Below are positions 22,824 to 29,827 of a stretch of DNA of 64,000 nt, one piece after another. The position numbers and the translations under genes were made by a program. The notes beneath the pieces are model-generated. The model saw only the letters and a program-made list of their open reading frames with translations. It was not told the origin of the DNA and made no database searches. How positions within the stretch are numbered: the stretch's first letter is position 1; each line of letters begins with the position of its first letter. Source of the stretch: an uncultured Deferribacteraceae bacterium (lineage in GTDB: Bacteria; Chrysiogenota; Deferribacteres; Deferribacterales; Mucispirillaceae); assembly GCA_947039395.1 (NCBI GenBank), contig CAMQYS010000005.1, positions 1-64,000 on the forward strand, in the 5' to 3' direction.

Positions 22824-24236
22824 ATGGATTCTAAAAAAGTATTAATACACGGTACAGGATTTTTTCAACATAAGCTTCTATCAGCTGTAAGTATGGATAG
22901 AAAATGTATTGTTGTAGATACAGAACAAGAGTTACTTAATAGTTATAAAAACGAGATGAGTAATATTGATATTTTAAAAGGTGATCTCACAAGCATTCCT
23001 ACTTGGAAGAAGATAGACCTGCCGATGATATCTCATATAATACTTTCAATGCAAGATTATGAAATGCTTCATGAAGTGTTAAGGATCACTAGAGATGAGA
23101 TGAAACTTCAGATACCTATACTTGTTCTACTATATAAAAGAACAGATAATCTTGAAGAGTTAGAAAAATTTAATGTTAAGATTATTAACCCTCTTGATAT
23201 CAATATAGAGTTAATAACTGGAATAATAGATAAGAATTATATTAGACCATTAAACATAGGTTTAGGTGAAGGCGAAATTGTTGAAGTGCTTATCATTCGT
23301 AGATCTCATATGATTCATCGTAAACTGAAATACTTTAGATCGACTAGATGGAAGGTAGTTGTAGCTTATCGTGATAATCAAATAATCTTTCCAGATGATG
23401 ATTTTATGTTAGAGATAGGCGATAGAATAGTTATCGTTGGAGAACCTAAAGCTGTTGCAAATATCGTACAAAATCTAACAACTGGTATGTATGAGTTTCC
23501 TCTTGAATATGGATCAAACTGTGCGGTACTGATTATTGATGATGTTGAGAAGAAATATATCGATGAAATTATATTTTTTGAAAGTATGGTTAAATCTAAA
23601 AAACTTGTTGTATACGGTAAAAGTAAAGATTTAGAGATCAAAAAAGAAGAAGTTAAATCACTTTGTGGATCTAACGGTGGTTACAGTTTAGAGTTGAAAT
23701 CGTTTAAAGATATCGTAAATGCTAAAGATGTAGGAATGATCGTTACGCCTGTTAAAGATAAGTTTAATATATTTGATTTAAAGTTAAGATACTTATTTCA
23801 ACATAGTAAAGTTCCGCTTTTATTAACAAGAGGAGTATCGCCTTATGAAGAGATTCTTGTATCTCTAAACGGTAGCGATGCTGATAGATTGTTAGAGACA
23901 AGTTCTGAACTTGCAACATTTTTCTCTGTTAAACTTAGGTACATATTTGTTACTCGTCCAGATGAGTTGATGAGTCAAGTTGATGAAGAAAATTTACAGA
24001 TGATGAACGATACAATATCGAACTTTGAAAGCGTTACAAATCTAAAATTAAAGTTTGAAGTGTTAAAAGGTAACCCTGTGAGAGAGAGTTTAAAAGCGAT
24101 TGATAGAAGCGTTAGTACGCTCTTAATGGTATCATCTAACCTTGCTGAATACATATCGTTATTCTCATCTAATGTACCATACTATCTTGCTGTAAAATCA
24201 AAAGTATCGGTATTAGTTTTACCATCAGAGTATTAA
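22824..24236 (+). CDS. RCK (TrkA-N/TrkA-C) protein fused to a universal-stress-like domain
   Basis: A 470-aa cytoplasmic protein. Residues 1-130 form a Rossmann-like RCK domain (VLIHGTGFFQHKLLSAV, then LKGDLTSIPTW) with a degenerate glycine motif. Residues about 140-215 are a TrkA-C domain (GEIVEVLIIRRSHMI, FMLEIGDRIVIVGEP). The rest, from about 330, resembles a UspA domain (VPLLLTRG, EEILVSLNGSDADRLLETSSELA, VLVLPSEY). It ends one base before the CPA2 antiporter start, so it is probably the cytoplasmic regulatory subunit of that transporter. Confidence 0.75.
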   Translation: MDSKKVLIHGTGFFQHKLLSAVSMDRKCIVVDTEQELLNSYKNEMSNIDILKGDLTSIPTWKKIDLPMISHIILSMQDYEMLHEVLRITRDEMKLQIPILVLLYKRTDNLEELEKFNVKIINPLDINIELITGIIDKNYIRPLNIGLGEGEIVEVLIIRRSHMIHRKLKYFRSTRWKVVVAYRDNQIIFPDDDFMLEIGDRIVIVGEPKAVANIVQNLTTGMYEFPLEYGSNCAVLIIDDVEKKYIDEIIFFESMVKSKKLVVYGKSKDLEIKKEEVKSLCGSNGGYSLELKSFKDIVNAKDVGMIVTPVKDKFNIFDLKLRYLFQHSKVPLLLTRGVSPYEEILVSLNGSDADRLLETSSELATFFSVKLRYIFVTRPDELMSQVDEENLQMMNDTISNFESVTNLKLKFEVLKGNPVRESLKAIDRSVSTLLMVSSNLAEYISLFSSNVPYYLAVKSKVSVLVLPSEY

Positions 24237-24237
24237 T

Positions 24238-25425
24238 ATGAGTGAAAAAGAAGCCATTGTATTAGTTTTAATTGCTGTTGGTGCATATATTATTCCGTTT
24301 ACTAGTAAAAAGTTAATGCTTCCATCAGCTGTTGGAGAGATATTATACGGAATGGGTTTAGCTTTTATTATTACAACTGGGCATGAAACTATGCCACTTG
24401 TAAAATATTTTTCTATGTTCGGTTTCCTTCTACTTATGTATATTGCAGGGCTTGAACTTGATTTTAATAAGTTTAGAGATATATCAAAGAAAGATGTAAT
24501 TTTATATTTTAGTATTTATATACCTATTTTGCTTGCTAGTATATTTATTGTAAATATATTTAATCTTGATAGAGCGTTTGTGTTAGTCCTTTTTACAACA
24601 GGTATCGGATTACAGTTCTCCGTATTAAAAGAGACAGGACTTATGTCAACATCGCTTGGACAGAGTATGTTGATTATCTGTATGATCGGAGAGATTTTTT
24701 CATTACTAGGATTAACACTTTTTTCTATGATTGCAGAGTCAGGCGTTTCAGCTGCTTTACTATTTGATGTCTTGTATATAGCGATATTTTTTGTAGTTAT
24801 ATACCTAGTTCTAAAAGGTTTAAAATATTTAATATGGTGGTTTCCAGAACTTCAATCAATGTTTCTAAAAGTTGGAAATATTACAGAGACTGGGATTAGA
24901 GGAAACTTTTTAATACTATTTTTCTTCGTAGCATTAGCGGTTATATTGAAGATAGAGTTTGTAATAGGAGCTTTTATAGGTGGAATGATTATAGCATTAG
25001 TTTTTCCAGATAGAGAGTCTATTTTAGAGAGACTAACTGGTGTTGCATACGGATTTTTCATACCTGTATTTTTTATCTCTGTTGGTGCTGGATTTAACTA
25101 TAAACATATATTTGATAAAGATGTTTTGATATTAGCACTTATAATTTCTGTTTTTATATTTGTTACAAAATTTGTCGGATCTATCTTGCTATTTTTTACA
25201 GATATAAAGAATAAAAAAGTTGTTTTAGTTGCAACATCACTCTCATTTCCATTAACTATTTTAGTTGCTATCGGAGAAGTTTTTAAAGAGAAAAGTATTA
25301 TCACTGAAGAACAATCATCAGCTATACTTCTATCAGCTATTATCACAGCTATCATATATCCGTGGATATTTAAACTACTTGTCAAACTGCTTGTAGATAG
25401 TAGAGATGTAAAAGCAGTTGAATAG
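24238..25425 (+). CDS. CPA2-family cation/proton antiporter (Kef/NapA type)
   Basis: A 395-aa membrane protein with about 11-12 helices. The typical features are the first-helix LPSAVGEILYGMGLAF, the GFLLLMYIAGLELDFNKF segment (LxxAGLE/D motif) and late helices with GGMIIALVFPD and FFISVGAGFNY, where acidic residues bind the cation. It lacks a fused RCK domain, which is supplied by the preceding gene. The probable substrate is K+ or Na+ in exchange for H+; selectivity cannot be read from sequence. Confidence 0.88.
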   Translation: MSEKEAIVLVLIAVGAYIIPFTSKKLMLPSAVGEILYGMGLAFIITTGHETMPLVKYFSMFGFLLLMYIAGLELDFNKFRDISKKDVILYFSIYIPILLASIFIVNIFNLDRAFVLVLFTTGIGLQFSVLKETGLMSTSLGQSMLIICMIGEIFSLLGLTLFSMIAESGVSAALLFDVLYIAIFFVVIYLVLKGLKYLIWWFPELQSMFLKVGNITETGIRGNFLILFFFVALAVILKIEFVIGAFIGGMIIALVFPDRESILERLTGVAYGFFIPVFFISVGAGFNYKHIFDKDVLILALIISVFIFVTKFVGSILLFFTDIKNKKVVLVATSLSFPLTILVAIGEVFKEKSIITEEQSSAILLSAIITAIIYPWIFKLLVKLLVDSRDVKAVE

Positions 25426-25655: not shown

Positions 25656-26171
25656 ATGATAGTAGGAGATCCATATAAATTTGCAGTTATTACGCAAGAG
25701 ATAAAAGAATGGAATACATGTAATACTTTCTGCAACGGAGTTTTACTTTTTTGTATTGATGGAGAAATTTTTCCAAAAACAATTGATACTGCAACTCTTA
25801 CATATGAACTATCTAGATATGTAGAGAAGTTAGCTACTATTGTTGTTGATCGTAAATTATATGATATGCTAAAAGAGGAAGCCTTCGTTTCTATGTATAA
25901 TTTAGTATATCCAGAAGATTGGGATATTGGTAACGATTACAGGTTTGATTTTTCTCCAGAGTCTAATGCTAATGGTGATTGCAAAGTTTTTGTAGTTAGC
26001 AACGGTGAGTATGTCCGTGTTATGGCTGCATCAGAGATTAAATATAATAAAGAAGAGTCGAGGCATGAACTTGATAATATTGCAATCAGTGATATAACGA
26101 TTACAGTGGAAGAATTTCATGAGATAATCTCTGCATTAAAGAGTTATATAGATGATTATAGAATGTTGTAA
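25656..26171 (+). CDS. Imm42-like immunity protein
   Basis: A 171-aa acidic protein whose N-terminus (MIVGDPYKFAVITQEIKEWN, then NGVLLFCIDGEIFPK) matches my recollection of the Imm42 immunity family that neutralises polymorphic toxins. I chose the ATG at 25656 because AGGGGTG lies 8 bases upstream; a GTG at 25647 is also in frame. No cognate toxin is adjacent. It is the first gene of an island of small, unrelated proteins and remnants. Family assignment is from memory of motif shape and is not certain. Confidence 0.6.
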   Translation: MIVGDPYKFAVITQEIKEWNTCNTFCNGVLLFCIDGEIFPKTIDTATLTYELSRYVEKLATIVVDRKLYDMLKEEAFVSMYNLVYPEDWDIGNDYRFDFSPESNANGDCKVFVVSNGEYVRVMAASEIKYNKEESRHELDNIAISDITITVEEFHEIISALKSYIDDYRML

Positions 26172-26242
26172 CAAATAGCTAATTGTTGGTATACAATAAG
26201 GTGTAATCTGTAAAGGTTATATTTTATGAAAGGAGATACATT

Positions 26243-26480
26243 ATAATAGAGAAAATTACTCAAGAGTTATTGACTGAATGTAAGACGATTTTTATGCAAG
26301 CATCAAACGACAATATATTTTTCACAAGCCCATTTTTACTTTAATATAGATATGTTAAATAATACTTCACATCTAATAATTCACATGAGTAAAAATTACG
26401 CTCGTTGTTTTTTATATGACATTACCTTAAAAGATAATACGGTATCGCTATTAAATAAAAAGGTTGTATGGGTTTCATAA
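26243..26480 (+). pseudogene. Broken small gene: start codon lost and one frameshift
   Basis: A good ribosome site AAAGGAG (26229-26235) is followed 7 bases later by ATA at 26243 where an ATG is expected. From there 33 codons (reading IIEKITQELLTECKTIFMQ onward) end at TAA 26342. The +1 frame, joined near a TTTTT run at about 26333-26337, continues for some 47 codons (YFNIDMLNNTSHLIIHMS onward) to TAA 26478. This is most simply an immunity-type gene that lost its start and frame. Family unknown. Confidence 0.5.
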
Positions 26481-26512
26481 AATGAAAGTTAAAATACTTA
26501 AAATGAGTAACC

Positions 26513-26689
26513 ATGATTAAAGCACAATTTGGAATTATTGATAAAATAGATTTTGATAAAGATTATTCAGATTATAGATAGGAGAAGTCACTGTATTTAT
26601 ATAGTAATTATCGTAAAGCTGTAGACAACCTACGCAAAGGTTTGAACTTAGAAATACCTCATAAGTTTTGTCAAGATTGGGAGATATAA
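26513..26689 (+). pseudogene. Remnant of a small immunity-type gene with an in-frame stop
   Basis: An ATG at 26513 opens MIKAQFGIIDKIDFDKDYSD and is stopped by TAG at 26579; the same frame then stays open to TAA at 26687 (reading EKSLYLYSNYRKAVDNLRKG onward). The N-terminus resembles small immunity-type proteins in general shape. The next frame (26709 onward) is open upstream to about 26670, so 26513-27008 may be fragments of one gene. Confidence 0.4.
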
Positions 26690-26708
26690 GTTTTCAAATT
26701 ATCAAAGA

Positions 26709-27008
26709 GTGAATGAATTTGTGAATTATTATATATATAATTTACGTAGTGATGATGAGAAAGTTAGCTTATTCATGATTATTGTATCGTCATTTGATGA
26801 TAGCTTAGGAATGAAATGTTTTGACTTAAATTTATGGGAAGCATTTTCAAATATCATAATGCAAGATTACGAACTTCATGAAGGAAAATTAGCTTATTGG
26901 GCTTCATACCCAGAAGACGATGAAGAGGACTGCCTTGAAGATTGTTTTTATATTGCACTTTACGTTAGAGATATTATACAAAAACACAGAAATAACTTCG
27001 ATAAATGA
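26709..27008 (+). CDS. Hypothetical acidic protein, probably a fragment
   Basis: An open frame of 99 codons from a GTG at 26709 with no visible ribosome site. The product is acidic and aromatic (SSFDDSLGMKCFDLNLWEAF, AYWASYPEDDEEDCLEDC). I do not recognise it. A different frame continues after it (about 26990-27147) with a well-formed coding-like C-terminus (YELSSVIINYYDKYSENHD, ending TYNDV), suggesting a frameshift near 26990. In context it looks like a decaying member of the immunity island rather than an intact gene. Confidence 0.4.
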   Translation: MNEFVNYYIYNLRSDDEKVSLFMIIVSSFDDSLGMKCFDLNLWEAFSNIIMQDYELHEGKLAYWASYPEDDEEDCLEDCFYIALYVRDIIQKHRNNFDK

Positions 27009-27189
27009 GTATTGTACGTATGAACTATCATCTGTGATTATCAATTATTACGATAAATATTCTGAAAACCATGATTTACAAAACGCATTAAAATCATGGA
27101 TATTACATAAAGATTTAACGTTAGAACAGACCTATAATGACGTATAATCTTACAAAGAGATAATTTGAAAGTTAAAAAGGAGAATATAC

Positions 27190-27735
27190 ATGGATATGAG
27201 TGAGCTAATTCAACGTATAGTAAGCACGGTGGATAAAAAGTATGTTCAAAGAAACTGTAAGATAATGTTGAAAAAACTGAGTTTTAAATCTGTTAATGAT
27301 TTAGGAAATGTAACAGAATTGGCTGTATGGCTATATATATATGGGCTGTATGATGAGGCTCTTGAAGTTTGTGATATAATTAAAGATGTGCCATTTACAG
27401 GAAATTATACATTATGGGAAGCGGTGGATAAAGCATTGTGTATCAAAGCAAGGATATTAAGAGAGCAGGGAAAGATAGAAGAAAGCTCCGAGATAATTGA
27501 GTATGTTAACCGATATAGACATCCAAATTTATATGAAAATGGGGTTCAATGGTTCACAGAAACCCTTGAAGTAAACATCGCCAGTAATCTTGGAACTGTT
27601 AATGGAAGACAATGGAGGTTGCTAAAATTGGAAACTGCCATACAATATAGAGAAGCAGGTAAATTTCCAATTTCCGATGAATCCTTAGAAATGATTATTA
27701 AAGATACGATAGCCATTCTGGAAACTGAAAAATAA
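27190..27735 (+). CDS. Hypothetical helical protein of the immunity island
   Basis: A 181-aa, mostly helical protein with a good AAGGAG ribosome site 8 bases before its ATG. The middle (NVTELAVWLYIYGLYDEALEVCDIIK, then ALCIKARILREQGKIEESSEII) resembles TPR-like helix pairs. No catalytic motif, signal or membrane segment. I recall similar orphan proteins within immunity-gene arrays of other bacteria, but I cannot name the family with confidence. Codon use looks slightly less AT-biased than in neighbouring housekeeping genes. Confidence 0.6.
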   Translation: MDMSELIQRIVSTVDKKYVQRNCKIMLKKLSFKSVNDLGNVTELAVWLYIYGLYDEALEVCDIIKDVPFTGNYTLWEAVDKALCIKARILREQGKIEESSEIIEYVNRYRHPNLYENGVQWFTETLEVNIASNLGTVNGRQWRLLKLETAIQYREAGKFPISDESLEMIIKDTIAILETEK

Positions 27736-27817
27736 ATCACACTTACATAAGATTACGAGCATTGCACGCATGTAGCCGTACTCTCTAATACTTAAGTAAA
27801 ATAAAACTAAATACGTA

Positions 27818-27937
27818 AATGAAGAAAATTCTATTATACTTGATGAAAATGTTTTAAAGAAAATTATGCAAACAAGGAATTTAGTTGGAATAATTTAAAC
27901 TTAGATATATTTCTGTTTCATTCTAGTGGAGATAATC
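27818..27937 (+). pseudogene. Short remnant with a frameshift, immunity island
   Basis: Two adjoining frames give coding-like peptides: ENSIILDENVLKKIM (from about 27821) and, in the next frame from about 27863, NYANKEFSWNNLNLDIFLFH followed by SSGDNHE. No start or full-length product remains. It is probably the 3' end of a lost gene directly before the 27938 gene. Confidence 0.35.
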
Positions 27938-28354
27938 ATGAAAGAAAATCAAAATTGGATTGTATGTAATCCAACAAATATTGAAGTTGGAAAAGCTTAC
28001 GCAGTTGAAGCTGTACATTGTGAAGACGGAATAAAGTTTGTTGTAGATTGTGAAAAAAATAAGATAGAAGTTATGTTTGCAGGGTTTGTTCCATCCTACA
28101 CTTACTCTCTAGAAGGAATGAGATTAGCATCTTATGTTCCAGTTCAAGAAAAACATAATGATAAATATTATTTTCAAAAATGGTTTCTGTATAAAATTGA
28201 GAATTCTAGTTTTGTAAAATGGGGAGTTGAAGAAAGTTGTGGATGCTACTCTGAGGCAGAACTTACACATTATTGTATAGTCACCGAGCAATCTCTTATG
28301 GATATTTTAGCAACAAGTGAACCACAAATTATAATTAATCGAAACAACTCCTAA
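27938..28354 (+). CDS. Hypothetical protein of the immunity island
   Basis: A 138-aa protein starting at the ATG at 27938, which has GGAG 7 bases upstream (a GTG at 27926 is also in frame but would include this site). It is soluble, aromatic and beta-rich (FAGFVPSYTYSLEGMRLASY, YFQKWFLYKIENSSFVKWGV) with several cysteines. I do not recognise a family. Size, isolation and neighbours suggest an immunity-type protein. Convergent with the HEAT-like gene 19 bp downstream. Confidence 0.55.
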   Translation: MKENQNWIVCNPTNIEVGKAYAVEAVHCEDGIKFVVDCEKNKIEVMFAGFVPSYTYSLEGMRLASYVPVQEKHNDKYYFQKWFLYKIENSSFVKWGVEESCGCYSEAELTHYCIVTEQSLMDILATSEPQIIINRNNS

Positions 28355-28373
28355 ATATTTGTTTAGTATATCA

Positions 28374-28874
28374 TCATTTAAGTTCAACATCAAACACAGT
28401 AGAACTCAATTCATACATGAGTTCTAAACTTTCCTCCATGCCTGATATTTTTTCTTTTAGAATATTAACATAGATCAACTTTTTTTCATCAGTCATATTA
28501 GCAAACTGTTTTTCAAATAAAGTATATGTATTATATTTTACTTCATAATTGCCATAAATTAATAGATCAATAAAACCATCTAATCTATCTGCAACATTTA
28601 ATTTCTCAAGAGCGTATATTAAAGTGCCTCTACAATTTTTTAGTTCAGGTTTATTAATTAATTTGATTAGTGGATTTATAGATTTATCACAACGCAAATC
28701 TCGAAATACTATAGCGATCGTGTTGCGATGTGCATCGTCTTTTGTTGTTTCAAGTCTTCGAATAAGTTTTTCTATGAATAAATCGTAATCATTCTTTTGA
28801 AGAGTTAATGCTAGGTTTGTAATATCTTCTATTTTATTTTCAGCTATCCAAGTATCAATTTTGTTTAAATCCAT
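28374..28874 (-). CDS. HEAT-repeat-like hypothetical protein
   Basis: A 166-aa all-helical protein. The pattern DDAHRNTIAIVFRDLRCDKS followed by INPLIKLINKPELKNCRG and TLIYALEKLNVADRLDGFIDLL is that of HEAT/armadillo helix pairs, as found in some immunity proteins and adaptor proteins. No signal or catalytic motif. It closes the accessory island on the minus strand, followed by no partner. Function unknown. Confidence 0.6.
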   Translation of the reverse strand: MDLNKIDTWIAENKIEDITNLALTLQKNDYDLFIEKLIRRLETTKDDAHRNTIAIVFRDLRCDKSINPLIKLINKPELKNCRGTLIYALEKLNVADRLDGFIDLLIYGNYEVKYNTYTLFEKQFANMTDEKKLIYVNILKEKISGMEESLELMYELSSTVFDVELK

Positions 28875-29020: not shown

Positions 29021-29827
29021 TTATTTTGTAGACATATTAAATATCATAGAGTCTTCACCACCACCTTGATATAGAGGAAGAACTCCGTTCCATTTGTCTA
29101 TCATTTTCTGTCTAATAAGTCTATCAGATAGAGAAGTTTCAACTATTCTATTTGCTTCTGCCACACCTTGAGATTTTTCTATTTCAGCTTGTGCTTCATA
29201 TTTAACTCTTTCAAGATCGTTTTTAGCACGTAAAGCGTTCTGTTCAGCGATCTTTTTAGACTCAATACTTTTATCGAATTCATCACTAAACTCATGATCA
29301 ATTATTGAAGATGCTGATACAGAGATTCCGTAACTTGAAAAATCACGTCTAAGTTCTGTTAACAGTTCTTGTGCTAAAATAGCACGTTTTTCGATAAATT
29401 CTTCTATAGTATATCTTGATACAACAGCGTTCACGCTTTCAGATACTCTAGGTTCGATTAACCTTGCTTTATAATCTGTACCGAAATTTCTATAAAGCTC
29501 AAGAACATCTCCAGTGATAGAGAATTGAACATTTATTACAACATCAATTGTTTGTATATCTTTACTTGAAACAGTAAAACTTCTTTGAGTATTCTGTTCT
29601 CTAACTTCCATCATTTTCACAGTTTCAATAAGAGGTATTTTAAATGATAGTCCTGCATCACGAACGCTTACTGCATTTCCAAAACGTAAAACCACACCTT
29701 TATTTCCAGTTGTTACTGTAACAATACTTAAAAGTATAGCTCCGATCAGAAGAATTCCTATCGCTATAAATATAAACTTTTTCTCAATTGTTTCGCCAAG
29801 TTTCTCTTTCATCTTCATTTTATTCAA
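29021..29827 (-). CDS. SPFH/prohibitin-family membrane protein
   Basis: A 268-aa protein with one N-terminal membrane helix (residues about 18-40), an SPFH domain (TTGNKGVVLRFGNAVSVRDAGLSFKIP, DVVINVQFSITG) and a long charged helix (about 175-235, IAEQNALRAKNDLERVKYEAQ) typical of prohibitin and HflC/HflK relatives. Such proteins form large membrane rings that scaffold or restrain proteases such as FtsH. No hflK/hflC partner or NfeD gene is adjacent. Monocistronic. Confidence 0.85.
   Translation of the reverse strand: MNKMKMKEKLGETIEKKFIFIAIGILLIGAILLSIVTVTTGNKGVVLRFGNAVSVRDAGLSFKIPLIETVKMMEVREQNTQRSFTVSSKDIQTIDVVINVQFSITGDVLELYRNFGTDYKARLIEPRVSESVNAVVSRYTIEEFIEKRAILAQELLTELRRDFSSYGISVSASSIIDHEFSDEFDKSIESKKIAEQNALRAKNDLERVKYEAQAEIEKSQGVAEANRIVETSLSDRLIRQKMIDKWNGVLPLYQGGGEDSMIFNMSTK

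Follow-up and report, generated by a model that had tools for sequence, protein, structure and literature searches.

Orphan immunity genes in a probable acquired island between two housekeeping genes of a Deferribacteraceae bacterium

Background

Between the genes for a CPA2-type Na+/H+ antiporter and an SPFH protein, a 64,000-nucleotide stretch of DNA from an uncultured Deferribacteraceae bacterium (assembly GCA_947039395.1, contig CAMQYS010000005.1, positions 1 to 64,000; the window) holds an island of small genes and gene fragments (25656-28874). This raises the question of what such genes do between two housekeeping genes, and how they arrived there. The analysis strongly favours an acquired, toxin-less (orphan) immunity island. 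A predicted immunity role is well supported for the Imm42 gene, the DUF6707 gene (27190) and a gene of a family without name (27938), because their homologues adjoin toxins or sit in immunity arrays, and it is likely for the remaining HEAT-like gene (28374). An earlier annotation made from the letters of the DNA alone (the sequence-only reading) had seen here an immunity-only array. Toxin or immunity-array contexts could indeed be identified for homologues of three of the four genes; protection against competitors, and the identity of the competitors' toxins, we infer.

Gene content of the island

The window corresponds to contig C5 in a genome of 2.1 Mb and 64 contigs (G000). It was compared with three congeners that are its closest relatives (G001-G003) and with a sister genus (G005-G012), all of these being draft or metagenome-assembled genomes. 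The features of the locus are as follows.

24238..25425, + strand: CPA2-type Na+/H+ antiporter, left flank, housekeeping (PF00999, E 1.1e-39)
25656..26171, + strand: Imm42 immunity protein, intact, 171 aa (PF15593, E 3.7e-31)
26240..26490, + strand: coding-like debris with many stops (from translation; Pfam match absent)
26500..27008, + strand: frameshifted pseudogene, Clospo_01618-like (44% identity over 99 aa to an intact 133-aa gene of G000; match to PF22374 with E 4e-4, short of its cut-off)
27009..27150, + strand: coding-like debris, C-terminal remnant of a gene (from translation)
27190..27735, + strand: DUF6707 protein, 181 aa, all-helical, predicted nuclease-toxin immunity protein (PF20453, E 3.2e-21)
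27752..27813, + strand: conserved 3' tail, truncated copy (copies behind orphan immunity-type genes on other contigs)
27815..27935, + strand: coding-like debris in two frames (from translation)
27938..28354, + strand: 138-aa immunity-type protein, family without name (context of homologues; dN/dS 0.08)
28374..28874, - strand: HEAT-like (Imm-HEAT-like) protein, 166 aa (HEAT_2, E 1e-3, below cut-off)
29021..29827, - strand: SPFH/Band_7 protein, right flank, housekeeping (PF01145, E 1.1e-32)

All four intact open reading frames (ORFs) were found where the sequence-only reading had placed them, three on the forward and one on the reverse strand, and each is preceded by a Shine-Dalgarno-like sequence. 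The flanks it had taken for housekeeping genes match Na_H_Exchanger and Band_7 in Pfam, and a profile search of the four island genes themselves returned no housekeeping family. An NCBIfam search of the island proteins gave nothing significant, their phage-defence hits in PADLOC were sub-threshold only, and an Rfam search of the window found nothing.

Since the longest ORF of the island encodes 181 residues, no toxin, integrase or secretion gene lies within it, as had been claimed. This holds for the island; the genome, which carries a two-partner-secretion (TPS) exoprotein gene, is not proven free of toxins. As to an integron cassette array, the island has no integrase gene, though no genome-wide IntI search was made. 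At least three broken genes had also been reported. One pseudogene could be demonstrated (~26600-27008), of which an intact relative of 133 aa is present in the same genome (L040:8918-9319, contig C26). The three other pieces (26240-26490, 27010-27150 and 27815-27935) are debris for which no parent gene could be identified.

Toxin and immunity contexts of homologues

A check of the neighbourhoods of homologues found toxin neighbours or immunity arrays for Imm42, 27938 and DUF6707, the HEAT gene being less certain. The Imm42-like label proved to be correct: the protein matches the whole PF15593 profile (positions 1-162 of 162) with 109 bits, compared to a curated cut-off of 27.2, and PDB entry 5ffp, 'Immunity 23 family', matches as well (E 1.5e-5). 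On a Salmonella plasmid (NZ_CP019193), Imm42 is encoded directly behind a toxin-tip-type gene, itself behind a CdiA-like gene, and a survey of 2012 pairs Ntox18 with Imm42 (PMC3482391). Other Imm42 alleles (25-27% identity) are found elsewhere in G001 and G002, beside SUKH and Imm10 genes.

The gene at 27190, described earlier as intact and helical, encodes an intact DUF6707 protein that is all-helical in a low-confidence structure model, with a TPR-like helical repeat; a fold search with this model gave no significant match. In a Streptococcus-like genome, DUF6707 is the last gene of a co-directional cluster with Imm-NTF2, Imm26, SUKH-1, DUF4304 and a pentapeptide protein, and in a Salmonella study a DUF6707 protein is the putative partner of an Rhs-NucA_B effector (PMC11669294). 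No obvious immunity array surrounds a second DUF6707 locus in Bacillota (L091). Among 60 relatives the family was absent from all genomes except G000 and G001, and a scan of genome contigs recovered only the congener G001 (contig CAMRDM010000029.1) and a distant archaeal match.

The protein encoded at 27938 had been left without identity, and no family match was found in Pfam, NCBIfam or phage-defence searches; its structure model is unusable (pLDDT 37). Its homologues are more informative. LIKHA_26 of Paenibacillus phage Likha (34% identity over 98 aa) starts 14 bp after LIKHA_25, a protein of 669 aa with a PT-TG pre-toxin domain (E 2.2e-11). The phage thus has a PT-TG polymorphic toxin with a 27938-type gene directly downstream (L130:2869-5297), a candidate toxin-immunity pair. 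On a Cronobacter plasmid (NZ_CP101592), a 27938 homologue adjoins an Imm42 gene in a cluster that includes MafI and lies behind an endonuclease toxin tip. Purifying selection among the island genes is strongest on 27938 (dN/dS, the ratio of nonsynonymous to synonymous divergence, of 0.08).

For the HEAT-like gene the strand and the intact ORF were as described, while its HEAT_2 match stays below the cut-off. HEAT repeats have been described as a class of immunity protein (PMC3482391). The homologues are annotated as HEAT proteins and lie on plasmids, amid other small accessory genes and with no clear toxin nearby; dN/dS of the island gene is 0.24.

Presence, absence and exchange between species

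The island is not conserved in all relatives. In G002 and G003 only about 0.3 kb separates the CPA2 and SPFH genes, with the SPFH terminator conserved. G001 has DUF6707, 27938 and the HEAT-like gene at 95-99% amino-acid identity, but misses Imm42; it keeps just the 3' end of the pseudogene, everything upstream of that end being gone. Most simply, G001 has lost the left part of the island.

Divergence at synonymous sites (dS; Nei-Gojobori with Jukes-Cantor correction, for the single genome pair G000/G001) is 0.047, 0.079 and 0.097 for the island genes, versus 0.352 for CPA2 and 0.372 for SPFH. The synonymous differences number 20 of ~309 in the island and 127 of ~571 in the flanks (Fisher p 5e-14, computed with these site totals, where the script prints 289 and 444). 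The low dS of the island relative to its flanks therefore implies that the island was exchanged after the species split. Nucleotide identity climbs from 86-93% to 96-99% over the last ~300 bp of CPA2, and returns to lower values at the SPFH stop. The simplest route of exchange is homologous recombination by way of the flanks. Between the same two genomes, 15 immunity-type genes have a median dS of 0.053, compared to 0.467 for 24 other genes (Mann-Whitney p 6e-4), with the two classes assigned after the genes had been seen.

Immunity genes and toxins in the genus and its sister genus

SUKH-1 matches number 9, 6, 2, 2 and 3 in G000-G004, versus none in the sister genus (G005-G012). For the type VI secretion system (T6SS) marker TssC/VipB the distribution is the reverse, with none in G000-G004 and presence in seven of the eight sister-genus genomes; few independent lineages underlie this contrast. 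The sister genus resembles Mucispirillum in its T6SS, as M. schaedleri possesses one (PMC5285517). No RHS was detected in any of the genomes searched.

At further loci, small genes stand in strings that include DUF4275, DUF6882, SUKH-1, Imm10 and families without name, and the lineage has many islands like the one in the window. At least eight small co-directional genes stand in a row on contig C11 of G000 (L122:5102-9004), including DUF4275 and a weak DUF6678 match, beside a broken SUKH gene; we read this row as another, larger immunity-type array. Tandem ankyrin-repeat genes adjoin SUKH-1 genes at the ends of two other contigs (L118 on C25 and L124 on C15), and these runs are possibly Imm-ank-type arrays.

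One TPS exoprotein gene is present in each of the 13 family members (G000-G012; L121, L126), and in G000 and G001 it is followed by a HAD phosphatase gene and then by an accessory SUKH island. As a source of cognate toxin this exoprotein was rejected, since its C-terminus has no variable tip between G000 and G001 and the HAD phosphatase gene follows it. It looks like an ordinary exoprotein.

A conserved 3' tail and tnpW

A sequence of 60-150 bp found 3' of DUF6707 occurs at eight distinct places in G000 and is also present in G001, but in none of the other genomes searched (G002-G012). In all seven copies with a visible upstream gene, this tail lies on the strand of an orphan gene, no more than ~25 bp from that gene's stop codon; the genes concerned encode DUF6882, proteins of 121, 155 and 239 aa, HEAT-431, SUKH-1 and DUF6707. 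The better-kept copies consist of IARKYPYSLATK-stop, which looks like the end of a gene since lost, then a terminator-like hairpin, then tnpW. A terminator-like stem is seen in the best-preserved copies (z -4.8 in the best one). The window copy (27752-27813) is truncated and decayed.

One tail-end remnant matches TnpW (E 5.8e-11), a protein that turned up in just one of 194 genomes searched, G000. Plasmid homologues of TnpW are located in Clostridia and Campylobacter coli, inside conjugative modules of Bacillota type, and one tail-carrying contig has genes for a TrwC relaxase and a TrwB coupling protein. On these grounds, a mobile element from Bacillota probably brought in some of the immunity genes. 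Contig C12 of G000 (L041:7995-15107 and L061:5684-6355) has an element that is mobilizable or conjugative, with TrwC relaxase, TrwB and ParA, and its counterpart in G001 has genes resembling those of a type IV secretion system. In the C12 element DUF6882, the 121-aa gene and SUKH-1 all have the tail, and two of the three also a tnpW match; this element is likely a vehicle for immunity-type genes.

A role of the tail itself in promoting transfer is a hypothesis. Searches of plasmids and phages did not recover the tail DNA, patterns taken from it were absent from the viral contigs searched, and a donor was not located. In Bacillota, tnpW likewise comes after a gene and a hairpin-like leader, but the leader is a different one and there is no immunity gene. 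In the literature searched, no paper was found to link immunity genes with tnpW, or immunity proteins with Deferribacterota. A wider model can be put forward tentatively, with more doubt than belief: orphan immunity genes would be shared without a recombinase, as cassettes with a common 3' tail (what appears to be the end of a mobile-element gene, a terminator hairpin and tnpW), tail and conserved flanks would serve as portable homology, and a Deferribacterota lineage without T6SS would take antidotes from Bacillota elements and pass them between species.

Alternative explanations

The island could also be the degenerate end of a polymorphic-toxin locus, in which the toxin has been lost and the remaining poly-immunity genes are decaying relics instead of a selected defence. 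Mixed poly-immunity loci that follow toxins are on record (PMC3482391), and at least one pseudogene and further debris lie in the island. No toxin remnant was found, however, and the congeners have no toxin at this site; moreover, 27938 and the HEAT-like gene are under constraint, and the recent move between species kept three open frames. We consider this origin improbable. Slightly less probable still is a chance mix of mobile-element cargo (helical, HEAT and DUF proteins), with Imm42 as the sole immunity gene. The weak HEAT match and the lack of a family for 27938 fit such a mix, as does tnpW, which points to a mobile-element origin for some genes. It is contradicted by the independent toxin or immunity contexts of 27938 and DUF6707, and by an association with SUKH-1, Imm10 and Imm42 genes that recurs elsewhere in the genus.

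Several observations weigh against an acquired orphan immunity island, or limit what it explains. The DUF6707 match spans only positions 89-192 of a profile of 279 positions, and the toxin link of the HEAT gene is generic and thus less certain. Four of the 15 immunity-type genes have ordinary divergence between G000 and G001. A tract inside a TrkA_C/Usp-type gene (window 22937-23936) is 98.5-100% identical between these genomes, with 82-93% on both sides; this is a separate inter-species recombination, so that such exchange is not specific to the island. Finally, the toxin searches covered VipB, RHS and TPS only, LXG and others not being searched.

With an acquired orphan immunity island as the preferred reading, each intact gene would encode a small protein of cytoplasmic type, which would block one class of toxin from competing bacteria by binding to it. 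For Imm42 the predicted target is the toxin class paired with it; DUF6707 would counter a toxin of nuclease type, 27938 a toxin tip of PT-TG type, and the HEAT-like protein probably a nuclease. Genes would arrive one by one or in small groups, some with the mobile-element tail of a Bacillota integrative element, settle between housekeeping genes, and pass between species of the genus by homologous recombination at the conserved flanks. Once no longer useful they would decay, which is the proposed reason for the pseudogenes in the island.

Comparison with known immunity gene collections

The nearest known systems are the orphan immunity arrays of gut Bacteroidales, i.e. the acquired interbacterial defence clusters AID-1 and rAID, the latter carrying a tyrosine recombinase together with intergenic motifs that are conserved (PMC12247911). 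The resemblance includes small orphan immunity genes without cognate effectors, horizontal acquisition and SUKH-type genes, and may extend to conserved intergenic motifs (PMC12247911). As in rAID, the window island has several orphan immunity genes and no cognate toxin at the locus, but the tyrosine recombinase is absent. Arrays of rAID are co-oriented and motif-bearing; the window island has three genes on one strand and one on the other, and a single truncated motif copy among eight in the genome. In this lineage, moreover, strands are mixed and the genes lie dispersed among numerous small islands; the shared motif here is a 3' tail with a link to tnpW, and the host belongs to the Deferribacterota, not the Bacteroidales. 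The Deferribacterota case is a dispersed, recombinase-free relative of AID/rAID, not rAID itself.

Poly-immunity loci of polymorphic toxin systems likewise have unrelated families next to each other, such as Imm42, Imm-HEAT and SUKH (Zhang et al. 2012, PMC3482391). In contrast to these loci, the window island has no upstream toxin gene or toxin-tip cassette, and is directly flanked by housekeeping genes. The same difference applies to the plasmid clusters of contact-dependent inhibition (CDI)/Maf type described above, where the neighbour of Imm42 is a 27938-like gene in Cronobacter and a preceding toxin tip in Salmonella: toxin-tip genes precede those clusters, not the window island.

Conclusions

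Collections of orphan immunity genes have so far been well documented mainly in gut Bacteroidales. The 27938 family now receives a functional prediction, and the conserved tail offers a searchable tag for more immunity genes and their passage across phyla. A lineage without T6SS or Rhs but with many immunity genes, next to a T6SS-bearing sister genus without SUKH-1, provides a natural contrast between arming and shielding.

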